Below are positions 5,265 to 25,656 of a stretch of 40,749 nucleotides of DNA, in pieces. The notes beneath the pieces were generated by a model, which did not search any database, had not been told where the DNA came from, and was given only the letters and a program-made list of their open reading frames with translations. Origin of the DNA: a virus; IMG/VR virus record IMGVR_UViG_3300009184_000086, positions 1-40,749 of that record; one strand, written 5' to 3'. The first letter of the stretch is position 1, and every line of letters starts with the position of its first letter. The translations under genes and the position numbers were made by a program.

Positions 5265-5893
5265 ACCTTGTCCTCCCCTCTTAACGCCTTGGCTTCGGCG
5301 ATAGCTTCATTAGATTTCTCAATTAATTTACCTCTAAAAAAAACATCTGGCACTCCTTCAACTACTGAGGCATCTATCATATGGTCTCTGAATTTAGTAA
5401 TTAGCTCCACCAGCCTGTCGTTCATGGCTTTGTAGGCTGCAAGGTCGGCTTCCATTTTAGACAACGCGCCCCAACTTATGTAAACAGAGGGTACAGGGCT
5501 TTTTTCTTTTTCGTGTTCGGTGGTCATAAAGTTAGTCGTTCTTTCCTTCGTCTCCTTGCCCAACTTGTCAAAATTGCTTACAAGTTCGGCATTTTTCTGT
5601 TTTAAGACTTCAACCTGGCGTTCAGAATTAGCGACTTGATTAATTAATTCGTCTTTCTTTCTCATAGCTGCTTTTAAGGTTCCGCTGCACAATAGGTTAA
5701 TTGCGTTTATGTCTTCTTCTTTAATCAGCCCCATTGCCTTCAAGGCCGCTGGGTTTTTGCGAAGACGTTGAAGCACCATTCCGATAATTTCAGAAGACGT
5801 CATATCTTCTATGTGTCTCAAAAACCCAAGCCTTTCGCCTATCGCTTCGTAATCAGGCTCGTTGCTGGGTTGTGGGGTATTTTGGTTAGACAT
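5261..5893 (-). CDS. Hypothetical coiled-coil protein
   Basis: 210 aa. The centre (about 70-120) is a heptad-like, lysine/glutamate-rich segment consistent with a coiled coil, and a second helical run follows at about 145-175. No catalytic motif or membrane segment. It overlaps the downstream gene by ATGA and the methyltransferase gene by eight bases. A structural or scaffolding role in the early complex is possible but unsupported. Confidence 0.6.
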   Translation of the reverse strand: MSNQNTPQPSNEPDYEAIGERLGFLRHIEDMTSSEIIGMVLQRLRKNPAALKAMGLIKEEDINAINLLCSGTLKAAMRKKDELINQVANSERQVEVLKQKNAELVSNFDKLGKETKERTTNFMTTEHEKEKSPVPSVYISWGALSKMEADLAAYKAMNDRLVELITKFRDHMIDASVVEGVPDVFFRGKLIEKSNEAIAEAKALRGEDKV

Positions 5894-6404
5894 AAACTAT
5901 TCCTTTTTGCTCTACTATTCCCAATGTCAGCCAAACGCTGTGAAATGGAGAGCCTCCTGTTTTTTCACCTCTTAATATTTTGGGATTAATGTAATTTATT
6001 CTTTTTTCTGGTATTAAAACGGTTATAGGCAATCCCTTTAAAATTCTAGTAGCGTTTACGCCGCCTAAATGCTCAAGTCTTATTAAAATTGCAAATGGTT
6101 TATCTAGTTTAACTGCTCGTTCAATAAACATTTTGTTCCCATTAAAGGGAGGATTTGTAATAAATACATCCCAGTGTTCGGGACAGCTAACTAAACAATC
6201 AATTTCTTTTTCTCCAACCACATTAAAGCCTTTGCTTTTAAGTAGTTCGGCCATGTGTCCAAGCCCATAGCAAGCCTCCCAAAAAAGTAAATCTTTATTT
6301 AAAAAAGGTGTTATACAATCTACTGCATATTTAGGAGTATAAATTTCGTTATAATTGTTTAGTTTAGGAAATTTTCGTTCGCTGGGGTGTGGGGCGGTGG
6401 TCAT
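5886..6404 (-). CDS. Orphan DNA methyltransferase-like protein
   Basis: 172 aa. It has the hallmarks of a small SAM-dependent amino-methyltransferase: a motif-I-like segment FWEACYGLGHMAELL (about 41-55), an acidic beta-2 region VVGEKEID (62-69) and the catalytic TNPPF (83-87) of N6-adenine or N4-cytosine enzymes. It lacks any target-recognition domain and no restriction partner is nearby, so it may protect phage DNA from host nucleases. Some phage relatives are annotated vaguely as sugar-phosphate nucleotidyltransferases, but the NPPF motif argues for methyl transfer. Confidence 0.75.
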   Translation of the reverse strand: MTTAPHPSERKFPKLNNYNEIYTPKYAVDCITPFLNKDLLFWEACYGLGHMAELLKSKGFNVVGEKEIDCLVSCPEHWDVFITNPPFNGNKMFIERAVKLDKPFAILIRLEHLGGVNATRILKGLPITVLIPEKRINYINPKILRGEKTGGSPFHSVWLTLGIVEQKGIVYV

Positions 6405-6649
6405 ACAACATGCCCCCTTCTAATTGCTTCGTCGGCAAGGGCTTCGGCAACATCGAATAAATGCCTCAAATTATAAATGTTTATTGTTTTGCATTCAAAT
6501 TTATCTTCTTCAATGACATAATTAATCGCGACGGAGGACGCCAATTGCATAGAAAACCGCAGAACTAGCTCGGAACGTTTACGGTTATTATCTTGCTCAG
6601 CATCTTTTTTAAAGTTGCAATATTTATATAATCCAGAGGGTGGTTTCAT
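6401..6649 (-). CDS. Hypothetical protein
   Basis: 82 aa, charged, with a C-terminal helix ending in an ATGA overlap with the methyltransferase gene. No recognised domain. It starts two bases after the stop of the gene at 6652. Confidence 0.5.
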   Translation of the reverse strand: MKPPSGLYKYCNFKKDAEQDNNRKRSELVLRFSMQLASSVAINYVIEEDKFECKTINIYNLRHLFDVAEALADEAIRRGHVV

Positions 6650-6651
6650 AT

Positions 6652-7131
6652 TTATTTCTCGCTTTCTGTTTTACCGATGCTGCGATAGGCGACTGTAAAT
6701 CGCTCTACTTTTTCATCTTGCGGAACCCATTCGTCTTTTTGTGCCAGGACTTCTCGCCCGCGACCGATAGCAAAGTGATTTTCTTCATTGTCAGGAGCGG
6801 AGTAAGCGACTTTTATTAGCTCACTGACGGCGTTCCTCAAACTTATTATTCTCTTTTGCAGCGACAAAATAAATAGTGTATTGGCCGAATCGCAAGCGGG
6901 GTCAACGTTGGCTTTTAGTCGTTCTATTTCTTTGCACAGCGCTTCGTGCAGATTAACCGCCTTTACGATGTACATTTGGTTCTCAGTAGTAACCGCGCAA
7001 GGGTAATACATTTCGTTGTCGGCCACTCGTTCGCCATCAGCGTCGATGATCTCGCACTCCGGCTCGCTAGAGATGTGCGTCGGGGGTTTTATATTTAGCT
7101 TCCAAGGGAGGGGGCTGTGTGTTTTGTTCAT
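6652..7131 (-). CDS. Phage hypothetical with SPLPW-type N-terminus
   Basis: 159 aa from the ATG at 7131. It opens NKTHSPLPWKL and carries a beta motif CEIIDADGERVADN, then NQMYIVKAVNLHEAL. This matches a very common phage family ('TPGPWxv ... D..G..VA ... N...I..A') of unknown function. A longer start at 7155 exists, but the small ORF 7136-7228 ends four bases before 7131, which supports the later start. Confidence 0.6.
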   Translation of the reverse strand: MNKTHSPLPWKLNIKPPTHISSEPECEIIDADGERVADNEMYYPCAVTTENQMYIVKAVNLHEALCKEIERLKANVDPACDSANTLFILSLQKRIISLRNAVSELIKVAYSAPDNEENHFAIGRGREVLAQKDEWVPQDEKVERFTVAYRSIGKTESEK

Positions 7132-7135
7132 GGGT

Positions 7136-7228
7136 TTACTTTCTAAAGAGTTCAAATATCAGGTGCACAACCAATACGCCGTATATAGGTAGGCGTCTGA
7201 ATTCGTAGCTTAAATCATCAATTTTCAT
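7136..7228 (-). CDS. 30-aa membrane mini-protein
   Basis: Begins with an ATG that overlaps the stop of the upstream gene as ATGA (7225-7228) and ends four bases before the next gene. Residues about 14-28 (PIYGVLVVHLIFELF) could span a membrane. Tight coupling on both sides is the only support. Its function is unknown. Confidence 0.45.
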   Translation of the reverse strand: MKIDDLSYEFRRLPIYGVLVVHLIFELFRK

Positions 7229-7512
7229 CGTCTGCCTTTCTTTAATCCTCCGAAGGTTTTGATCGAGCGCAATGCCCAGGCTTCGGCTTGTTCCTTGGCT
7301 TTAAAATAGATATTAGTATAGGCGCAGATACCAAAACACCGGTAGGCAAAGCCGTCCATAGATGTGATGTAGCGCTTGACGATTTTACCGCCACTGACTA
7401 TCTGCCATCTAAGATAGTTTTTGTCTTGAGACGCCATAGTCTCGATTATTTGGTTTATCTCAATCCGGTACGGGCGCCAGAAAAACCAGATAAATTTTTT
7501 AAGATTTTGCAT
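7225..7512 (-). CDS. Hypothetical protein, membrane-proximal N-terminus
   Basis: 95 aa, basic. The first residues (KFIWFFWRPY) are aromatic and could insert in a membrane surface. The rest is soluble and ends in a basic tail KKGRR. It overlaps the upstream gene by 14 bases. No recognised family. Confidence 0.5.
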   Translation of the reverse strand: MQNLKKFIWFFWRPYRIEINQIIETMASQDKNYLRWQIVSGGKIVKRYITSMDGFAYRCFGICAYTNIYFKAKEQAEAWALRSIKTFGGLKKGRR

Positions 7513-7699
7513 GAAGTTTTTTAAAGTTGGTGTAATAGCGTTGTTTTGTTTCTTTGGCCATGGCTTTCTTGCGTAGCCTTATTTGCCAAGATTTCAGCGG
7601 GGTTCTTTCTGTGGGGACAATCCGCTCCGGCTCAACAGAAGAAACAAGCTTGTTTTCTGGGTAGTTTGGGAAGTTGCAATTTATTGGTTTTGTTTCCAT
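7499..7699 (-). CDS. First gene of leftward operon; small basic protein
   Basis: 66 aa, no membrane segment, strongly basic in the second half (RLRKKAMAKETKQRY). It is the promoter-proximal gene of the minus-strand early operon. First genes of early operons often encode host-takeover peptides, but the sequence gives no more than position and charge. Confidence 0.5.
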   Translation of the reverse strand: METKPINCNFPNYPENKLVSSVEPERIVPTERTPLKSWQIRLRKKAMAKETKQRYYTNFKKLHAKS

Positions 7700-7917
7700 A
7701 GTTTTAATTACGAAGGGAACTTTACCTGTTCTATTTTTAAAGTAAAGAAAAATCTTTAACTTTTTTTATGGTGCTTTCGCGCCTTTGTTTATGCGGCTTT
7801 CATCAGCAAGTGCAATTTTTGCACACGGTAATAAAAATATTTTTGATTATTTTTTAAAATTCCCTTGACAGTTAAAATGTTTTCTGCAAAAACATCTCGC
7901 AACGAAAGAAAAACGCA
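7700..7917. promoter_or_regulatory. Divergent control region between early operons
   Basis: AT-rich, no gene. TTGACA stands at 7865-7870 (plus strand) but no good -10 follows at 16-18 bp. On the minus strand TTGCAC, inside the palindrome at 7810-7824, is followed after 16 bp by CATAAA, a weak leftward promoter. An inverted repeat CTTTAC/GTAAAG lies at 7720-7725/7742-7747, in the leader of the leftward operon. The region must hold the start sites for both operons, but the exact promoters are not secure. Confidence 0.5.
7810..7824. promoter_or_regulatory. Perfect palindrome, possible operator
   Basis: GTGCAATTTTTGCAC: 6-bp perfect arms around TTT. It overlaps the -35 of the weak leftward promoter described for 7700-7917. 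The HTH protein encoded at 3170-3427 is a possible ligand. Confidence 0.45.
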
Positions 7918-8244
7918 ATGAAAAATCCCGATCATCTAGATGTACTATACGCCGCCGCGGTTGCAGCAGTGCCTGTAATCGTGGCTATGTGGCTTTACTT
8001 CCGCAAACGCCCAAAGTTAGTTGACTTAGATGATCACGCTAGTGAGGTAACTCAGCCGGGCTTTCTAACAGAAAAGATAATAGAATGGGCTAAAAATGTA
8101 CGCCGCTATAGGCCCTTTCGTTTTAGCGAGGTGGCTATCGCTTTCCCTGAGTACGACACCAGAACACTAAGACAGGCAACAAAGACTCTATTATACAAAG
8201 GGCACCTCCGCCAAAACAAAGCCGGCTGGATGAAAGTAAACTAA
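7918..8244 (+). CDS. Membrane-anchored winged-helix-like protein
   Basis: 108 aa, first gene of the rightward operon. Residues about 9-27 (VLYAAAVAAVPVIVAMWLY) form one membrane helix followed by RKR, which suggests a cytoplasmic C-terminus. Residues about 48-106 look like a winged helix: a RYRPFRFSEVA helix, a RTLRQATKTLLYKGHL recognition-type helix, then a short wing ending in GWMKVN. The ribosome site is weak (GAAAG). It might tether phage DNA or the replication complex to the inner membrane. Confidence 0.6.
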   Translation: MKNPDHLDVLYAAAVAAVPVIVAMWLYFRKRPKLVDLDDHASEVTQPGFLTEKIIEWAKNVRRYRPFRFSEVAIAFPEYDTRTLRQATKTLLYKGHLRQNKAGWMKVN

Positions 8245-8245
8245 T

Positions 8246-8551
8246 ATGGTATACATCTTACTAAAAGGTAAAGAAGACGCACGGGCCTTCATTGGTTTTG
8301 AGGGCGATGAGTGGAAGGTTGTGGCTAAACTAGCAGAGGCCCATGTGTTTTTAGAGCCTCTCGAAGCCGAGGATTTTGTAGCAGAGCAGGCGGAGTACAT
8401 CGGCGAAGACGGCTGGGCGCCTTACATAGTGCAACCCTCGCTAGCAGCCAAGGTCGATAAGCACCTTGAGACTTTAAGAACCCAGGTAGACACCACTAAA
8501 CAAGAATATCAAGACAACGTGATCAAGCCACAAAAACTTAAACGGAAATAA
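8246..8551 (+). CDS. Hypothetical protein
   Basis: 101 aa, begins one base after the preceding gene. The N-terminal 70 residues are alpha/beta and acidic. The last 30 form a charged helix ending in KLKRK. No known domain. It sits immediately before the SNF2 helicase, so it may assist it. Confidence 0.55.
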   Translation: MVYILLKGKEDARAFIGFEGDEWKVVAKLAEAHVFLEPLEAEDFVAEQAEYIGEDGWAPYIVQPSLAAKVDKHLETLRTQVDTTKQEYQDNVIKPQKLKRK

Positions 8552-8555
8552 TTCT

Positions 8556-9896
8556 GTGAAAATAAAAAACGCAAACCTTAGACCGTACCAAATAGAAGGT
8601 GCACGGTTTTTAGAGCGCAACAAGAATGCGCTCCTGGCCGATGAGATGGGTTTAGGCAAAACAGTTCAGGTCATCGCTTGGCTTAATAGCTGCGTGCCCC
8701 AAGGTTTGACTGCTAGGGTATTAATCGTGTGCCCGGCGAGTCTTAAGATAAATTGGTGCAAAGAGTGGAAAGACAAAGCGCTGTCGGATCTAAGTATTGA
8801 CTATGCACACGGCGCCTACTTTCCAAAGACCGACATTGTAGTTATTAACTACGACATTCTGCACAAACACCGCGACGCTTTGCGCGCCTTCACTTGGGAT
8901 GCGGTGGTGTTAGATGAAGCGCACTACATCAAATCCCATGACTCGCGCCGGACCATCGAGCTTCTCGGCAGCCGCAGCAAAGGGATACCCGCCATAAAAA
9001 CACGCCGCCGTGTAGCCCTGACAGGTACCCCAATACTTAACCGCCCAATCGAGCTTTACACAATGTTGTATTGGCTCGGCCTAGACATGCCCGCACGGCA
9101 TGAGTTTGCCCTACAATACTGCGGAGCGAAGCTAGTTGAGAAATACGTCCGTGGCGGACGTCGCGTAAAAATGTGGTGGTATAACGGCGCCACGAATATC
9201 AGCGAACTAAGGCAGAAGTATTTAGCCCCCATCATGTTAAGGCGCTTAAAAGATGACGTACTGCAGGATTTGCCCGAGAAGATCAAGCAGGTTGTCGAGT
9301 TGCCAAACGTAAAGACGCGCCTCCCCGTAAGCCGGACATTCCGGTCCGGGGAAACTTTTGAAGAAGTCGTAGCCATACTGCAAAAAGAATTCCCAGAGGC
9401 TATGGACAGCATCCCCACACAGCGTAAGGAAGAGGGCCTGGCAAAGGTGCCTACAATTATCGAGCACCTGCATGACTGCTTGGAGGTTGAGGAAAAAGTA
9501 GTTTGTTTTTGCTACCATCGCGACGTGGTGCAAGCCCTAATGGAAGAGTTTGGTGATGACGCTGTTTGCGTGATTGGTGGCATGAGTGCTGAGGCCAAGG
9601 ACGAAGCAGTTGAGCAATTCCAAAAAGGAACTAAAAGACTTTTCATTGGCAACATCACAGCGGCAGGAGTTGGCTTGACTTTGACGGCCTCTCGGTTAGT
9701 AGTATTTGCGGAGCTGTCTTGGGTCCCTGGCGAGATACAACAAGCCGAAGACCGCTGCCACCGCTTCGGCCAGCGCGACACCGTTCACGTGCAATACCTT
9801 GTTGCCCACGATAGCGTTGAGGCATTCATGGCTGAGATACTCGTTCGTAAAAATAAAATTTTGGAAAAGGTCTTAAAGCCGATTCCTAGAAAGTAA
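8556..9896 (+). CDS. SNF2-type DEAD-like helicase/ATPase
   Basis: 446 aa, GTG start. Superfamily 2, SNF2 group: Q-motif region LRPYQIEGARFL (8-19), motif I ADEMGLGKT (28-36), motif II DEAH (120-123), motif III TGTP (156-159), and motif VI around QAEDRCHRFGQRD (about 396-408). It has both RecA-like lobes and almost nothing else, as in other phage versions next to polymerase and nuclease genes. It probably moves along DNA to remodel replication or recombination intermediates. It is the largest ATPase of the rightward operon. Confidence 0.93.
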   Translation: MKIKNANLRPYQIEGARFLERNKNALLADEMGLGKTVQVIAWLNSCVPQGLTARVLIVCPASLKINWCKEWKDKALSDLSIDYAHGAYFPKTDIVVINYDILHKHRDALRAFTWDAVVLDEAHYIKSHDSRRTIELLGSRSKGIPAIKTRRRVALTGTPILNRPIELYTMLYWLGLDMPARHEFALQYCGAKLVEKYVRGGRRVKMWWYNGATNISELRQKYLAPIMLRRLKDDVLQDLPEKIKQVVELPNVKTRLPVSRTFRSGETFEEVVAILQKEFPEAMDSIPTQRKEEGLAKVPTIIEHLHDCLEVEEKVVCFCYHRDVVQALMEEFGDDAVCVIGGMSAEAKDEAVEQFQKGTKRLFIGNITAAGVGLTLTASRLVVFAELSWVPGEIQQAEDRCHRFGQRDTVHVQYLVAHDSVEAFMAEILVRKNKILEKVLKPIPRK

Positions 9897-9898
9897 AC

Positions 9899-10306
9899 AT
9901 GAGAGCAACATCAACCACAACAATGAAAGAACTCGTCCTTGCAGTCCGGGCGCTAACCGCCCAACTGGAAAGACTAACGGCTGGAGGGCCAGTACCTTCG
10001 GCACCTAGCAACGCAGAAACGCCAACACCGAAACCCAGTGTCGCAGCAGAAACCGCTGAACCAGAAAAAGCAACGCCGCCAGTCAAACAGAAGTATACGT
10101 TTGACCAGATAAAGAATACACTGCTTGATTGCAGTGCGCGCTTCGGCGTAGATGTCGCCCGGGAACTCTTGGCCAAGGTCGGATGCGACCGCGTAAAGAG
10201 CCTATCCGAAAGCGATTACCCGGTGTTGATGAACCACATCGAAGAATACCTGACGAAGTACACGGCAGCAAACCCCGACCTACCTCAGGTAGGCAAAGAT
10301 GAGTAG
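9899..10306 (+). CDS. Rrp5-like small phage replication protein
   Basis: 135 aa. A short coiled coil (about 9-27) is followed by a proline/alanine-rich linker (about 30-64) and a compact helical domain (about 66-122: YTFDQIKNTLLDCSARFG ... LMNHIEEYL). Proteins with this C-terminal domain sit beside phage ssDNA-binding and nuclease genes and are often called Rrp5-like by weak similarity. They are probably DNA-replication accessories. The spacing of two or three bases on either side marks it as part of the operon. Confidence 0.6.
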   Translation: MRATSTTTMKELVLAVRALTAQLERLTAGGPVPSAPSNAETPTPKPSVAAETAEPEKATPPVKQKYTFDQIKNTLLDCSARFGVDVARELLAKVGCDRVKSLSESDYPVLMNHIEEYLTKYTAANPDLPQVGKDE

Positions 10307-10309
10307 GCC

Positions 10310-11518
10310 ATGTCTAAAGCCCACAAGAGACTTTCGCCAAGCGCTGCCCATCGTTGGATGGTTTGCCCGGCAGAGCCAAACCTAAGGGATTCATTGCCGC
10401 CTCCGCCGGATACTGATTTCTCTAAGGAGGGGACGACGGCGCATTGGGTGGCTGAGCAATCTATTACTCTCGGGGCTGAGCCTCATGAGCTAGTGGACAA
10501 AGTCTGCCCTGATACCGGGGTAACTGTAACTGAAGAGATGGCCGATGCGGTAAAAGTGTATGTCGATGAGGTTAGCCGGCATAAAGGCTTTTCTCGTACC
10601 GAAACGCGCTTTAACCTGGCTGAGGTTCATCCTGACATTGGAGGTACATCGGACTATTGCGTCTATGTTAAGGAGGAAAAAACCCTATACGTTTACGACT
10701 ACAAGCACGGCCAAGGCGTGTTTGTTGAGGTAGATGATAACCCCCAGCTTAAGATTTATGGACTCGGGGCGGCAGCCGCCATCGCTTCTTTGATCGGAGA
10801 GCCGCTTGAGAAGCTAATTGAGCACATAGATTTTTACGTAGTTCAGCCCCGGCACCGTGGTGGGAGTGAGCCTATTAGGCACAAACGCTACGAATTAAAG
10901 GATGTAATTTATTGGCGTGATAAAGTGCTCAAGCCAGCGGCAGAAGCCACTGACGCACAGCCTCCAAAATTTGTTGCAGGAGAACACTGCCGCTTTTGCC
11001 CAGCTTTGGGTATCTGCCAAGCAGCTCGTAATCACGCAGCAGAATTAGCAAAAGTAGATTTCAACCGCGTCGTGTTGCCATCACCGGCGCTTCTTTCCCA
11101 GAAAGATAAAGCCAGGATACTACAGGCAGAGGAGCTTATTAGCGCCTGGTTTTCTGCAGTACGGGAACAAGCGTTCAATGATTTGCAGCGCGGCGTGGCT
11201 GTACCAGGATTTAAACTGGTGGCAAAGCGCGCTAACAGACAGTGGATTGACGAAGCTCAAGTCGAAGCAGTTCTAACAAAACGGCTTGGCCAAAAGGCTT
11301 TCATTAAGAAACTTCTTTCCCCAGCGCAGGCAGAAAAAGAACTGGGCAAAAAGGAAGGCAGTGCTCTAGTAGACCAGCTGACCTTTAAGCCCGACAATGG
11401 CGTAACGATTGCACCTGAAGAGGACCGCCGTCGTGAAGCAACCGCAGGAGCAGTTGCGGATTTCGATGATGTTGTACTCGCTGCTCCGAGTACGACGCAA
11501 AAAACACTAAAAAAATGA
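10310..11518 (+). CDS. DUF2800 Cas4/RecB-like nuclease
   Basis: 402 aa. PD-(D/E)XK nuclease fold: D115 in GGTSDYCVYV, then D130-Y-K132 in YVYDYKHGQG. Four cysteines, C19, C227, C230 and C236, fit the iron-sulfur-cluster arrangement of Cas4/AddB-type nucleases. DUF2800 members are widespread in phages and are thought to process DNA ends for recombination. Its end overlaps the ssDNA-binding gene by ATGA, as expected for an exonuclease and binding-protein pair. Confidence 0.9.
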   Translation: MSKAHKRLSPSAAHRWMVCPAEPNLRDSLPPPPDTDFSKEGTTAHWVAEQSITLGAEPHELVDKVCPDTGVTVTEEMADAVKVYVDEVSRHKGFSRTETRFNLAEVHPDIGGTSDYCVYVKEEKTLYVYDYKHGQGVFVEVDDNPQLKIYGLGAAAAIASLIGEPLEKLIEHIDFYVVQPRHRGGSEPIRHKRYELKDVIYWRDKVLKPAAEATDAQPPKFVAGEHCRFCPALGICQAARNHAAELAKVDFNRVVLPSPALLSQKDKARILQAEELISAWFSAVREQAFNDLQRGVAVPGFKLVAKRANRQWIDEAQVEAVLTKRLGQKAFIKKLLSPAQAEKELGKKEGSALVDQLTFKPDNGVTIAPEEDRRREATAGAVADFDDVVLAAPSTTQKTLKK

Positions 11519-12069
11519 CAACAGAAAAAAAGAAATCTCTAGTAACCCCGGAAGGCCGCGTAAGCTTTCCTGACGTCTTCAAGGGCAAACCTTCGGAGAA
11601 CGACCCAAATACAACAGTGCGCGAAGTGACTCTGCTAATTCCAAAGACGCAGAATATCGACGTGATTAAGAACGCAGTTCGCGCTGCGGTAGAGGCTAAG
11701 TGGCCGGATGCTAAGAAGCGCCCGGGCAATCTAGCCTTGCCAATACGCGATGGCGATACTGAGAAGCCCCATCTTGATGGCTATGCCGGTCACTGGTTCA
11801 TGGCATTCCGTTGCCGTAACCGTGTGCCCGGACTTGTAGATGCATCAAAGCAGGCAATCGTTAATCCCGACGAATTCTACGCCGGCTGTTTTGCGCGTGT
11901 GAGCTTCGATGCTTACGCCTACGACAACGCCAAGAAAAAAGGTGTTTCTCTAGGGCTTAACAATATTATGAAGACCAAGGAAGGTGCACGCTTCGGTAAT
12001 GCCGTGGCGTCAGCCGAGGATGACTTTGCCGATGTCCGCACGGCAGATCAAGACGACCTGTTTAATTAA
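11515..12069 (+). CDS. ssDNA-binding protein (DUF2815 family)
   Basis: 184 aa. It follows the DUF2815/Enc34 pattern: VTPEGRVSFPDVFKGKP at the start, REVTLLIPK, an LDGYAGHWFMAF core and VSFDAYAYDNAKKKGVSLGL late. OB-fold ssDNA-binding proteins of this type coat phage single strands. The tail ends in acidic TADQDDLFN, like the protein-docking tails of T7 gp2.5 and other SSBs. It is coupled to the DUF2800 nuclease and lies upstream of the polymerase. Confidence 0.88.
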   Translation: MTTEKKKSLVTPEGRVSFPDVFKGKPSENDPNTTVREVTLLIPKTQNIDVIKNAVRAAVEAKWPDAKKRPGNLALPIRDGDTEKPHLDGYAGHWFMAFRCRNRVPGLVDASKQAIVNPDEFYAGCFARVSFDAYAYDNAKKKGVSLGLNNIMKTKEGARFGNAVASAEDDFADVRTADQDDLFN

Positions 12070-12113
12070 GTGGACAACAGGGGCCGCGCATCTGGCAAAA
12101 CGCGGAGATATTA

Positions 12114-12395
12114 GTGACTGAACAAGAAAACCTTCGACTTAAAGACGCCTGTTTTAGGTGCTTCGTTGCCCTCATACAAAGAGCTGTAGAGGATTACGTG
12201 GCTGACGTTAAAGACATGCAATGTCTTAGCCGAAGAAAACCCAAGCGCGAAGCCGTCGAGTTTTATGAAAGCGCCCGGTGGTTCTTGTTTTCTCCCGACG
12301 GCCTCGAGCACCTGATCGAAAAGTACGAAATGCAATACCACATAAAGATTGACGCAATACGCCACAGGGCAAACCAAATAAAAAAATGCAAATAA
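12114..12395 (+). CDS. Hypothetical helical protein
   Basis: 93 aa from a GTG at 12114, with GGAG 8 bases upstream. The 44-base gap before it can form a hairpin, CCGCG (12084-12088) with CGCGG (12101-12105), whose right arm touches the ribosome site and could limit translation. Mostly helical, three cysteines, basic C-terminus. It overlaps the polymerase start by 10 bases. Not recognised. Confidence 0.55.
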   Translation: MTEQENLRLKDACFRCFVALIQRAVEDYVADVKDMQCLSRRKPKREAVEFYESARWFLFSPDGLEHLIEKYEMQYHIKIDAIRHRANQIKKCK

Positions 12396-19854: not shown

Positions 19855-22800
19855 TTACTCTCTTGGCGGACGGATAAAATAATCCAGGAAGCTGACATCT
19901 TCGCCGTTGGCTTGATTAGCCATGGCGTCGATAGTAACGCTCAGCTGACTGGCGGGGACAGGAGCCAAAAGACTCGCCAAGGTAACGCCGGCTTTAAGAG
20001 TATTTTTGTCAAAGTTTTCCCGCTCGGTGTCTTTTATAACTAGCTGCCCGGCGCGTATAAGACTTTCAACAGGGGTCATTTGGTAATCTTGCCCGGTCAG
20101 CATAGCGCGGAAAACTCCGCCGGCGATGGGGATTAAACCGGTCCCTTGTAAAGCAACTATCTGAGCAATCTTTTTCCATTTCTCGTCGTCGTCGACGTCC
20201 GGAAAGTTTCGTTTAATGATTTGCTCCATTAAAGCAGGAGCAATCATCATATTTGCTACTCCCGCCAGTGCAGCAGGAAGCGCTACGATTCCGTCTCTTT
20301 TGACGTTATTCATGCGGCGCAGCAGACGATTGTACACCACGTTGGTGTAGGTTTGGAACATGGTGAATAGCCTGGCCGTGTCGTTTCCGCCGGCGATCAA
20401 CTGGCTTTGGGCGTATGATAAACCCGCGCCCTGTGTCTTTCTGACAACGCTATCGGCGTACTGAACTGCGTCTTCGTGGCTCATGCGCATTTCCTCTAGC
20501 GCTTTGCTGTAGCCACCGAGCCAGCTTGGTAGTGCGGTGGCAGCGTCAAAAAATCCGATCATTGCAAAAGCCGAATCTTCGTACGCAGATTTTACTTTTC
20601 CTGCATCATATTTGTTGTTTATTTCAGCAATGTTGCGGTCGACGTTTCTGCGCCGGGTTTTCATAAAATCGGAAACAGATTCTACCCAAGAGTGTAGCTC
20701 TCCGATTTTCGCAGGGTTTGCATAGGCTTTGGCTAACCCAAGTGTGGCCCATTTGGCGCCTAACTCATCCACAGTATTTGCATAGCCAACAATGTTTACA
20801 ACCGCCGACCCTACCTTGAGGCCCAGCTGAGCAAAGGTGGTGCGCTTGCGTATAAAGCGAGCCATGCCATCCGTTATAAAAGAGCCTGTAACATTGGTTC
20901 CGATAGACTCTTTAAGCCACCAATTTAGATAGTTGGCTTTTTCCGCCCCCATAGTTGACTCTAGGGCAGAGCGAACATTTTTGTCTTTTAAAAGTCTCGC
21001 AACATCCCGCACCGGCTCAAACAGATTTAAATCCGTGTAAACCTGTTTAAAATGTGAATCGAGGGGGTCCCAACCACGTAAACGAATTACTCGGTCGCCA
21101 GTGCCCACGCGAGCCATACGGTACCCATACTGCGTGGCGATAGCACCCGTGAATTGATTCATGGCTACGATGCCTGAGTCTTTTAAATTCTGCTCAACTG
21201 TGCCGTTTTTCATTTCGTACGCCAGGGGGAAGTACCACCCTTCGTACTCACCAAAAGGCGTCGAGACTTTGGTAGGCTGGACCATTTTCAACTTTAGTCC
21301 GGTCACACGCTGGTTGTGGGCTTGAATTCTTTCTTTGTCCTTTTCGAGCAAATTCCCAATTCTTTTTACAGTATCCCAATCTTTCTTGGTCATCGTAGCC
21401 AATACGCCGGCTACTTCTGCAGCGCTATATCTGCCATATAACGCGGCCTTATTGCCTTCGTTGCCCGTTTGCAAAGCCCAGTACAAGACGTCTCGTTTTG
21501 CTATTTTCGTGCCCAATTCTTTTATGTAAACATCTCGGGCCAGTTCTCCACTGCCGTAATCACTGAGAATTTTATTAAGCTCGCCCATCGTTTCAGTCAG
21601 CTCAAGCGTGGCTTTATTTACCGCTTTAGCAATAGGCTGAAATATAAATTTAGTTAGTGGGCCTACCTTATCTCCATCAAACTCTGTTAACAGGAACTCT
21701 ACCAGACGCAGTGTAGTAGCTATGCGCTCTCCGTACCTAGCGGCATCATAGAGTTTATTTGAGCTAGACACCGCTTTAGGCTCTGTGCGCTGCTTGTTAT
21801 TGACGCGCAGACTTTCTACTATTTCCTGAGCCTTTGTCTGCCTAGCAGATGCCACAGTAATGTCGTTGAGTTCTTTTAGCTGGCGGCCTACATGCGCAAT
21901 ACTTTCGACCGCGTTGTATACATCTTCAATTAGTCCAAGCTTTGCATCGTTAATATTGAGCTTAGTTCTTACTTCTGCCAAGGATTCAGGTATGATCGGG
22001 AAATTGTAATCCTCGTTTTGGCGGCGCTGCCACTCTGCCAGGGTGCCAATTTTAACGGCTCGCGAAGCTTCTGATTCATTTGAAAGGCTTACAAGAGAAA
22101 GAATTTCATCAATACGCGCCAGGTATTCCGGGTCACCCAAGCCGATTTTAGCGCGAGCGCTAGGGTTAGTGGCGTAGTCTTTTAGCTTTTCTACAAACCG
22201 ATCAACCTGTTTAAGACGAGACGTGGCTTCTTTGTAAGACAGGTAGAACTCTGCTTGTTTGCGACGAGCTTCTGCCGCTTGCGCGTACCGGCCTGAAGCA
22301 AAGTAAGACTGTGCCTGTTCCGCCGCTTTACGAGCATCACGGAAGTATTGTTCGGGGCTGAGAGTTCCGTAAACAGCTTCATCCATTCTCTGAGACACAA
22401 TCTCAGCTAGAATATCAAGAGGCGTGCCGGTACGACCAGAGAGCTTATCGAGCGCATCTATCTCTTTTCTTAATGTGGCAAATTTAGGGTCGTTTACTAA
22501 AGCATCACGTGCCGCAGCTTCAATGTTAGATTCAGCCAAGAAATCAGCGTATTTCTCCATCATGGCCTGCTCGACAAAACCTTGGACCATCTCTTCTTTC
22601 GAGACATTGGCCGTTAGCTCTTCGACCATTTTGTACTTGTTATCGTACTCAAACAGCTGAGCAACATCTTCCAACGGCACTCCGTCTTTTTTAACCCAAC
22701 GCGGGTTTAATTCATCAAGCTGCTTTTGAGTAATTACGCCATCAGCGACCATTTGCTCGAGCTCTTGGCGGTTGAGCCCTACTTTCAGCTGCTCCCCGAC

Positions 22801-25656
22801 TTCAATACGTTCGCCTGTCTTTTCGGAAACGTATTCAAATTTTCCTGTGCTTAGGAACGATCGAACAAGCGCCCAACGCATGTTGCCAACTTCTTTCTCG
22901 GCTTTAGCTTTTTCTTCGGCGCGGATTTTTCTGTACTCAGATATTTTGGCTTTTTCTACGCGAGCCTGCGCCTTTTGAAATAGCGTATCTTGGGCGGTTT
23001 CTAATGCCCGATTATGGGTGTTAATGTACTCAGCGTAGCCCTTGGCGGACATACCCGCTTCTTCCGGAGTTTTAAACAAAGGAGCCATCGGAGCGGCATC
23101 TTCGTTTGCATTAAGAACCTCGGATGCGCCCAGCAGTCGTCCAAATATTCCAGCCACCTCTCCAGTCTGTTGGCCGCCAGAGCGCACGTGCTGGTCGTAT
23201 AGCGCGCCTAACCAGCGGCCGTACTGCCTAAACGCCGGCTTTAGTGCTTTGTTTGGGGCCACGCCATCGGCAAGGAATTGCTCAAACGCAGCTGCCCATT
23301 TTTCCTGCTGGGCTTCTGTAAAAGGCTTACCACCTTCTGCGCCTACATATTTCAGAGCGGCTTCTCTTAAAGCTTTTACCTCAGGCGAAGCATTTTCTGT
23401 GCTGCCGATTTGATCTACAATTTGCAGAAACGCATGGCCACTTTCGTGTAAGAAAGTGGTGGGGTCAGCCGCAGAAAAAAGCGTAATGACGTTGCCGGCC
23501 GGGTCAAAATTTCCTCGGTCTGTGGTGCGTTCAGTTAACAGCGAAGAGTCGAAAGCACGTGTTATTGTAGGTTTATACTTCTGATAAAGCGCAAATGCGT
23601 CTTCGCCGGACAACTCAGCCAGGGTTGAGAAGAACGCGCCGTAAAGTTTTGACTGAGCTTTAGCTGTTGCCTTCTTGCTTTTTAATTTAACAAGATCAGC
23701 TTCTACGCCTTGCTCCACAAGAATGCGGCTTTTCTGTTGGGCAGTCAGGCTGTCAAATTTTTCTTGCGCCCGCTTGGTGACGTTGCCTTGTTCAGCGGCA
23801 ATCCGTGTATAAATGCTTTTGGCTTCAGCGCCAGTCAGGCCGCCGGCGGTCAGCGAGGTCTCTTCGATTAAAGCTTTTCTCGCATCAGCGCTTAAAAAAG
23901 AGAGATAGTTTTCCAGCGGAATGGAAAGGGTCTGACCGTTTTTGAGCTGCTCAGAGATACCGAGCTTTTCTACAGTCTCAGTCAGCTGTTCGTTTTTACC
24001 CGCAAAATACTTTATAAATGCTTCGGAGTCTATGAAAACATTTTTCTGTGCCTTAGGCAGCGCCGCTTGCTCAACGGCTTTTTGCGCAAAAGTCTGTCTA
24101 TCTCGGCCGGTTACAGTGGTTGCGTCAGCCGCCGAGTTTAAACTTTCCAGTCGGGCTCTATCTCTTTCGTATTTGGCGATTTGACCCAGCTGTCTGACAT
24201 TAGATGCACCACTTAGCACAAGCAGCGGACCCGCCGACGTTAACGCGCCGACGGCACCTGCTTGGCCAATACGAGAAAGTGCTTCCAGGGGAGTGGTGTC
24301 GGCAAACAGCTTCTTGTCGTCAAATGTTTTTGCCAACTCTTCGCCGACGATGTTGTTTAATTCAAAAGCCGCCATCAGCGCGCCTTGGCTGGCTACGGTA
24401 GTAGCGTAATTTTTACTCCATGCAAGAAGAGCTTTCTGAAAAGTCGGGCTTGTTTCTAAAGCTTTTTGTAAAACAGTTTTCGTAAATCCCTTAGAAAGGT
24501 TGCGGCCAACAGCGCCGGAAACAACCTCAGCCGCGCCTATACTTAAAAAGCCGCCGGCTGCCCCGGCTATTTTTGCCGCGATTCGAGCTGCTTGAGGGTC
24601 AATAGGCGTGCCATCTACTGATTTTATCTTCTTGAACTCTCTATACGCCTGCCCCATTGTCTGTTCGGCACCGACATCAAAAGCTCCTGTTCGCGAAGCT
24701 GCGCTTAAAGCAGTCGGCAAAGCGCGGGCTGCGCCGATCACTGCTCCTGCGGCACGCGCTTGTACAGGGCCGGGAGTAGAAATAAAGCCGCCAAGGGCGC
24801 CGGCGCCTACGCCCGCGGCGAACACCGGGGCTCCTCTAGCTGCAGCCATTCCTATCTGAGCCGCGCCGCCGGAGGTAAACGCGCCCGCAGCTTGTGAAAA
24901 ATTAAAAAGAGCGTTCTCTCCTTCGGGGATTAAGGACCTCTCGGTTTCTAAGCGAAGATACTCCTGCTCCTCTGCAGGAGTTAGCGGAACTTCGTTGGCG
25001 CGCTTGGCATCTAGCTCGTTCATACGAGTCTCGATGCCGCCAAGCTTAGTCAGCCCGCTTCCAAAACCATCAATGATAGAAGCAAAAGCGTTTAGATTTG
25101 TGACGTCCCGGCGTCCCACCCTGGCGTTGTAAGGATCAACCATCCACTCTCGGACGGCGGGATGCCACTCATTGATCCTATCTAACTTCATGCCGACACG
25201 CAGCGCGGCTAGCTCTGCGCTTCCGACGTCCGCTTCGACTGTCTCTTTATCTAGCCCTAAAACATTTGCGGTCTGATTTACCCGGGCCTGCTGTTCAGGC
25301 TGATATTCAGCCGCGGCCATCATGTTATTGCGAACTGTTTCGTTCTTAGCCTCGTCAGAAACACTTGTAGGGGCGTTGCCAGCGACAAGCTCACTTAGCC
25401 GAGTGTTAAGTGCAATCGTGTCTGCATAGCCTTGATAGATGTCTTTTATGTCATCGCTAGGAGCGATGTAGCGCTGAACCGGAGTAGTTTTGGGCGCTAC
25501 AAATTTATAATCAAGTCCGCCGGTCCCGTTTGGAGAGATGGTAGACATCTTCGGCTCAGCCGGTGCGTCGCTAATAACAGGAGCTTCGGTGGGCTGCGCG
25601 TAGGCTGGCGAAGTCCCGCCACTAAACTCCGTGTCCTGCCTTTGTATAGTTATCAT
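19855..25656 (-). CDS. Giant internal virion (DNA ejection) protein with metallopeptidase motif
   Basis: 1933 aa, the largest gene. Position after gp14- and gp15-like genes, length and alpha-helical, alanine-rich sequence point to the gp16-like ejection protein that enters the cell ahead of the DNA. Glycine/alanine-rich hydrophobic stretches at about 255-320 and 350-385 could insert in the membrane. A zinc-peptidase HExxH motif, HESGH at 737-741, lies inside PTTFLHESGHAFLQI. No lysozyme or transglycosylase motif is evident, unlike T7 gp16. Large polyvalent phage proteins share this peptidase pattern. Confidence 0.82.
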   Translation of the reverse strand: MITIQRQDTEFSGGTSPAYAQPTEAPVISDAPAEPKMSTISPNGTGGLDYKFVAPKTTPVQRYIAPSDDIKDIYQGYADTIALNTRLSELVAGNAPTSVSDEAKNETVRNNMMAAAEYQPEQQARVNQTANVLGLDKETVEADVGSAELAALRVGMKLDRINEWHPAVREWMVDPYNARVGRRDVTNLNAFASIIDGFGSGLTKLGGIETRMNELDAKRANEVPLTPAEEQEYLRLETERSLIPEGENALFNFSQAAGAFTSGGAAQIGMAAARGAPVFAAGVGAGALGGFISTPGPVQARAAGAVIGAARALPTALSAASRTGAFDVGAEQTMGQAYREFKKIKSVDGTPIDPQAARIAAKIAGAAGGFLSIGAAEVVSGAVGRNLSKGFTKTVLQKALETSPTFQKALLAWSKNYATTVASQGALMAAFELNNIVGEELAKTFDDKKLFADTTPLEALSRIGQAGAVGALTSAGPLLVLSGASNVRQLGQIAKYERDRARLESLNSAADATTVTGRDRQTFAQKAVEQAALPKAQKNVFIDSEAFIKYFAGKNEQLTETVEKLGISEQLKNGQTLSIPLENYLSFLSADARKALIEETSLTAGGLTGAEAKSIYTRIAAEQGNVTKRAQEKFDSLTAQQKSRILVEQGVEADLVKLKSKKATAKAQSKLYGAFFSTLAELSGEDAFALYQKYKPTITRAFDSSLLTERTTDRGNFDPAGNVITLFSAADPTTFLHESGHAFLQIVDQIGSTENASPEVKALREAALKYVGAEGGKPFTEAQQEKWAAAFEQFLADGVAPNKALKPAFRQYGRWLGALYDQHVRSGGQQTGEVAGIFGRLLGASEVLNANEDAAPMAPLFKTPEEAGMSAKGYAEYINTHNRALETAQDTLFQKAQARVEKAKISEYRKIRAEEKAKAEKEVGNMRWALVRSFLSTGKFEYVSEKTGERIEVGEQLKVGLNRQELEQMVADGVITQKQLDELNPRWVKKDGVPLEDVAQLFEYDNKYKMVEELTANVSKEEMVQGFVEQAMMEKYADFLAESNIEAAARDALVNDPKFATLRKEIDALDKLSGRTGTPLDILAEIVSQRMDEAVYGTLSPEQYFRDARKAAEQAQSYFASGRYAQAAEARRKQAEFYLSYKEATSRLKQVDRFVEKLKDYATNPSARAKIGLGDPEYLARIDEILSLVSLSNESEASRAVKIGTLAEWQRRQNEDYNFPIIPESLAEVRTKLNINDAKLGLIEDVYNAVESIAHVGRQLKELNDITVASARQTKAQEIVESLRVNNKQRTEPKAVSSSNKLYDAARYGERIATTLRLVEFLLTEFDGDKVGPLTKFIFQPIAKAVNKATLELTETMGELNKILSDYGSGELARDVYIKELGTKIAKRDVLYWALQTGNEGNKAALYGRYSAAEVAGVLATMTKKDWDTVKRIGNLLEKDKERIQAHNQRVTGLKLKMVQPTKVSTPFGEYEGWYFPLAYEMKNGTVEQNLKDSGIVAMNQFTGAIATQYGYRMARVGTGDRVIRLRGWDPLDSHFKQVYTDLNLFEPVRDVARLLKDKNVRSALESTMGAEKANYLNWWLKESIGTNVTGSFITDGMARFIRKRTTFAQLGLKVGSAVVNIVGYANTVDELGAKWATLGLAKAYANPAKIGELHSWVESVSDFMKTRRRNVDRNIAEINNKYDAGKVKSAYEDSAFAMIGFFDAATALPSWLGGYSKALEEMRMSHEDAVQYADSVVRKTQGAGLSYAQSQLIAGGNDTARLFTMFQTYTNVVYNRLLRRMNNVKRDGIVALPAALAGVANMMIAPALMEQIIKRNFPDVDDDEKWKKIAQIVALQGTGLIPIAGGVFRAMLTGQDYQMTPVESLIRAGQLVIKDTERENFDKNTLKAGVTLASLLAPVPASQLSVTIDAMANQANGEDVSFLDYFIRPPRE

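Follow-up and report, generated by a model that had tools for sequence, protein, structure and literature searches.

A predicted zincin-like metallopeptidase at the border between the variable front and the constant chassis of a giant, probably ejected phage protein

Zincin-like metallopeptidases (MPTases) of phage polyvalent proteins, of which there are 12 clades, were described by Iyer et al. in 2017 (PMC5512222). Their active-site helix carries HExxH and is preceded by a three-strand beta sheet and an N-terminal helix, and a conserved glutamate on a later helix serves as third metal ligand. In giant phage proteins these MPTases are fused with large polyvalent protein associated domains (LPDs) and with ART and PBECR domains; Iyer et al. 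proposed that each cleaves the polyvalent chain to which it belongs, either ahead of packaging or after entry, with action on host proteins as an alternative (PMC5512222). The P1 protein DdrB, which has a C-terminal MPTase, is processed before packaging; the N4 vRNAP, which also has one, goes into the virion uncut, and MPTase proteins of plasmids are transferred full length (PMC5512222), so self-cleavage is not universal among them.

The protein considered here, P0001, is a giant of 1933 aa encoded at 19855..25656 of a 40,749-nucleotide window (the whole stretch of viral DNA that was analysed, positions 1 to 40,749 of IMG/VR record IMGVR_UViG_3300009184_000086); like all window features given below, it lies on the minus strand. 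It falls in PHROG 9880, together with Bbp10 of Bordetella phage BPP-1 and its relatives, and it shares with them both the place in the cassette and the order of LPD22, a second N-terminal domain, the HExxH domain and a long rear part or ‘chassis’. In Bbp10 the peptidase is preceded by a PBECR1 nuclease, whereas P0001 is without a payload domain, and identity between them is only ~24-28%.

Gene order in the window runs from a tail tubular protein B type protein (P0004, 28224..30500; PHROG 376, E 2.4e-192) through a small protein, a gp14-like internal virion protein (P0005, 27289..27762; PHROG 418, E 1.2e-29, with Pfam T7_gp14 below cut-off) and a 542-aa protein (P0002, 25658..27286) to the giant. 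The same order is found in Vibrio phage MZH0603, and the last three genes also stand as in N4, where a small and a middle protein go with the vRNAP, a cysteine-free ejected giant; the vRNAP carries an RNA polymerase, which P0001 does not. P0002 occupies the position of T7 gp15 and the N4 66-kDa protein, and neither Pfam nor PHROGs nor a set of 50,697 phage records contains a match to it. In many relatives, the gene directly upstream of the giant encodes a wall-degrading enzyme (annotated as lysozyme, SLT or M23). As a side observation, P0004 contains an E1_FCCH domain (Pfam PF16190) at aa 531-600, and the presence of this domain in a tail tubular B-like protein accounts for the odd use of ‘ubiquitin-activating enzyme’ as a label in Vibrio phage records.

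T7 gp16 carries a transglycosylase. It is cysteine-free and is the largest internal protein, following gp14-like and middle proteins, and so it is with P0001, which bears a predicted peptidase in place of the transglycosylase. The initial annotation had read P0001 as the counterpart of gp16 in which the transglycosylase is not seen; the comparison holds for position only, since P0001 gave no gp16-family or transglycosylase match in Pfam, PHROG, NCBIfam and PDB sequences and no sequence similarity to the T7 protein was found.

P0001 and P0002 have no cysteine, and neither do T7 gp15 and gp16, P22 gp7, gp20 and gp16, or the N4 vRNAP, 66-kDa and 16.5-kDa proteins; among the 28,282 residues of the giants of 12 named phages there is 1 cysteine, whereas other proteins of the same loci have 165 in 17,688. 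N4-like vRNAP had already been noted to lack cysteine, a property linked to its injection through the tail (PMC3915230). Cysteine exclusion may help to recognise, from sequence, proteins that are ejected across the envelope. Near-absence of cysteine, as in known ejection proteins, suggests that the whole P0001 chain, front, peptidase and rear, probably passes through the tail; the gene order, with a PHROG 418 internal virion protein close by, is likewise indirect evidence for packaging in the head and ejection. That P0001 is ejected we consider very likely. This bears on the idea that the peptidase works in the procapsid, shortening the giant or other internal proteins to make them fit and pass out through the narrow tail. 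Very long chains in all relatives, and the processing of MPTase-bearing DdrB before packaging, would suit such a role in assembly; however, the N4 giant is packaged uncut despite its MPTase (PMC5512222) and, as both halves of P0001 are cysteine-free and so both probably ejected, prior trimming would not be needed. We regard procapsid trimming as unlikely. One archaeal-virus relative (L010, 2005-7929 of Caudoviricetes sp. vir555, a Methanomicrobiales virus) keeps HExxH but departs from this pattern: its 3 cysteines, each C-terminal to the motif, perhaps reflect a host without an oxidising periplasm.

The motif itself, HESGH at residues 737-741 of the ORF translated from 25656..19855, lies at 23434..23448, exactly where the initial annotation had placed it, within the flanking sequence AADPTTFLHESGHAFLQIVD; H737 and H741 are putative zinc ligands, and E738 the putative general base. 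P0001 has only 10 histidines in total, and 0.0039 HExxH motifs are expected from its amino-acid composition. When the protein was shuffled 5,000 times HExxH appeared in 0.3% of shuffles and HExGH in 0.02%, so HESGH in P0001 is not a chance string. Other in-frame HExxH motifs in the six frames of the window fall in ORFs of 97, 28 and 48 codons, which are not credible genes, and STFLHExGH, the family-wide form of the motif, written as a degenerate DNA pattern, matches once in the window and in 0 of 100 shuffles.

Comparison with other phages shows that this site is strictly kept. Searching P0001 by tblastn against 50,697 phage records gave relatives in 42 records, all below 60% identity, and in 30 of the 40 phages listed the similarity begins at aa 702-724, just ahead of the motif. 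Each of the 19 relatives whose sequence was read out carries HExxH, set in [DN]xSTFLHExGHxxLE or a close variant, with (H/Q)EqfArgfExYLxEGkAPS downstream. H737, E738 and H741 are among the invariant residues of an 18-sequence phage alignment and so, in 18 of 18, is E785 (23302..23304), which stands 44 residues past H741 and is the candidate third zinc ligand of a gluzincin-type site; E792 (23281..23283), a second invariant glutamate, is on the same helix and perhaps belongs to a second shell. The H-E-H triad and both glutamates are also kept in named phages at 21-30% identity.

Viral contigs searched with P0001 alone gave no relative, and a broad alignment yielded no searchable pattern, but an alignment including BPP-1-type relatives found the domain in hundreds of contigs. 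Because the first pattern used on the contigs included the motif, that search was repeated with two far-C-terminal patterns only. In the set so fetched, H, E and H are kept in 67 of 67 relatives that reach the site, and E785 and E792 in 68 of 68 that span it; the remaining motif-less relatives end at contig ends before the site. An apparent lack of the domain in one relative (L103) was rejected, since the upstream part of its split gene encodes HESGH; this gene (5265-12268) consists of two overlapping frames, 5265-8945 and 8462-12268, through a sequencing error or a frameshift. The motif is thus invariant in homologues. This invariance also bears on whether the domain could be a metal-binding fold of the ejection machine that performs no proteolysis. 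The motif does stand at the beginning of the constant, chassis side of the protein, as a structural element might, but E738 would be dispensable for a purely structural site and yet is found in every relative covering it, at 20-35% overall identity, making a non-proteolytic fold a very improbable reading.

AlphaFold2 (AF2) models place these residues on two helices. One model covered aa 587-962 (from 69 sequences; mean pLDDT 78.8) and one the core, aa 680-876 (from 104 sequences; mean pLDDT 85.9), which was modelled separately because helical bundles dominated the Foldseek matches of the 376-aa model. Both agree on a beta-hairpin, then the HESGH helix, then a later helix with E785 near its start; in the core model the HESGH helix has pLDDT of ~91-96 and E785 sits on a helix of aa 781-797. 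Together with conservation and the VIA-align comparison below, this delimits a zincin-like metallopeptidase core of beta-hairpin, HExxH helix and glutamate helix at ~aa 714-830 (23167..23517). The motif is therefore found in a confidently predicted helix, with a candidate ligand on a later one, rather than in a coil devoid of a third ligand. Ahead of the active-site helix, the core model has two strands (the hairpin) and short helices only, where the published polyvalent-protein MPTases have a three-strand sheet and an N-terminal helix (PMC5512222).

When the core model was compared with known structures by VIA-align, the best three matches were to the catalytic domain of anthrax lethal factor (PDB 1yqy and others), a gluzincin that also makes up the majority of the top 17 rows; lethal factor was the sole zincin family listed, which excludes nothing. 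These matches are modest (Z 4.5-4.8 over ~99 residues, chain residues 651-778) and extend over the helix of the motif as well as that of E785; a Z below 8 alone is no proof, but the entries matched are a single enzyme, and one from the class expected. The N4 domain, too, matched anthrax lethal factor according to Iyer et al. (PMC5512222). Foldseek returned no significant match for the core model, and PDB sequence searches with P0001 gave chance-level matches only, among them a match to Spartan that spans the HExxH helix (E 0.11). The MPTase region of N4 vRNAP (aa 2130-2460) has a beta-hairpin-like stretch, HExxH and a glutamate on a later helix, like P0001, and the profiles of the P0001 family and the N4 MPTase match weakly (hhalign E 0.004-0.02; score 26.5, with 21.4 the highest among 60 decoys). 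The predicted helix, the candidate ligand E785 and the invariance of the motif support the zincin-type active site proposed in the initial annotation, and we hold it almost certain that this domain of P0001 has a zincin fold with intact catalytic residues; presumably it would bind zinc and be catalytically active.

That annotation had treated the site as a lone oddity; the domain is instead of a known kind, the MPTase of phage polyvalent proteins, and LPD22 (aa 111-199, 25060..25326; Pfam PF18834, 30.3 bits against a cut-off of 28.6) is present in P0001 as LPDs are in the published examples. The P0001 version of the peptidase lies outside all current Pfam and NCBIfam models, and PHROG 9880 is described as of ‘unknown function’; for these phages the annotation is therefore new, although the kind was described in 2017. 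Relatives of the giant (including L005 and L006) are labelled ‘lysin’, ‘lysis protein’ or ‘crystallin beta/gamma motif-containing’; nothing was found in support of a lysis function for them.

The position of the peptidase within the chain is suggestive of what it may cut. Behind LPD22 lies a second conserved N-terminal domain, unnamed and of VYIDA/FIDS type (aa 485-623, 23788..24204), recognised in the window at 38.8 bits (i-E 5.6e-12) by an HMM built from 36 relatives; then comes a stretch in the payload position (aa 624-713, 23518..23787), the peptidase, and the constant C-terminal chassis (~aa 831-1933, 19858..23166), which is conserved across BPP-1-like phages. LPD22 was found in the N-terminal halves of 47 of 49 relatives and ART-PolyVal in 15 of 49, other domains of these halves being GNAT, PBECR1/3/5, MuF_C, ddrB-ParB, Zeta toxin and further LPDs. 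The payloads (ADP-ribosyltransferases, BECR nucleases, GNATs) are all N-terminal to the peptidase, as with PBECR5 ahead of the HExxH domain in the protein of Cobetia phage Carin1. Length before the motif varies greatly in relatives (median 950, SD 408 aa) and length behind it hardly at all (median 1255, SD 55), placing the peptidase where an exchangeable front meets a constant rear.

It is this place, between variable payload and constant chassis, that favours self-processing near the border. We propose that P0001, a protein of a BPP-1-like short-tailed phage, is packaged inside the head and probably enters the cell with the DNA. Within residues ~714-830, H737, H741 and E785 would hold the metal and E738 would activate water; during or after ejection the peptidase would cut its own chain near the border of the variable front and the constant chassis, and the cut would release the N-terminal module from the chassis. 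On balance we lean, with some reserve, towards P0001 being a polyvalent ejection protein with a gluzincin-type MPTase that cuts its own chain near this border, and we have a similar slight preference for the peptidase acting mainly on its own chain after packaging. A literature search found no virion proteomics of relatives showing cleavage.

The same border position also speaks on the suggestion, made in the initial annotation, that the peptidase cuts envelope or host proteins, for which no specific support was found. An ejected peptidase might nevertheless be an effector that acts on host cytoplasmic or envelope proteins: the cysteine exclusion indicates that the chain probably enters the cell, MPTases can be effectors in other conflict systems (PMC5512222), and the peptidase is invariant even where the payload is almost missing. 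However, the effector domains of this family differ strongly between phages, whereas the peptidase is constant and fused to the chassis, and its constancy across hosts as different as Pseudomonas, Caulobacter, Vibrio and that of a methanogen virus fits a house-keeping role better; we doubt that host proteins are its targets.

P0001 is itself informative here, being nearly payload-free and yet intact in its catalytic residues. Only 114 aa separate its second N-terminal domain from HExxH, the 7th shortest distance of 134 (median 381, maximum 1657), leaving no space for the usual payload. At least four other short forms (L109, L150, L165 and L167), found without selection for the motif, keep motif and catalytic residues too, and so payload release would not be the whole reason for the protease. 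As these payload-poor forms keep all catalytic residues, the self-cut may be required for building or opening a trans-envelope channel in all BPP-1-like phages; that the peptidase is a working part of the ejection machine, rather than mainly a device for payload release, we put forward only tentatively.

Self-cleavage of the chain, as proposed by Iyer et al., becomes directly testable where a protease is fixed between swappable toxin-like payloads and an ejection chassis, and payload-poor members such as P0001 offer a clean case for separating payload release from a role of the protease in ejection. The domain also offers a way into the function of a giant phage protein that is very common yet left as unknown or mislabelled as lysin in databases.

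Two smaller observations concern individual relatives. Limnohabitans phage DC33 (L009, PQ492659.1) has a 39-kb genome with podovirus-type genes but is filed under Inoviridae, an evident misclassification. Five relatives (L004, L008, L011, L012 and L075) have a second HExxH (HEVQH, HEVLH or HEIQH) ~190-340 aa before the conserved one, which apparently marks a further metallopeptidase-like domain within the payload region.
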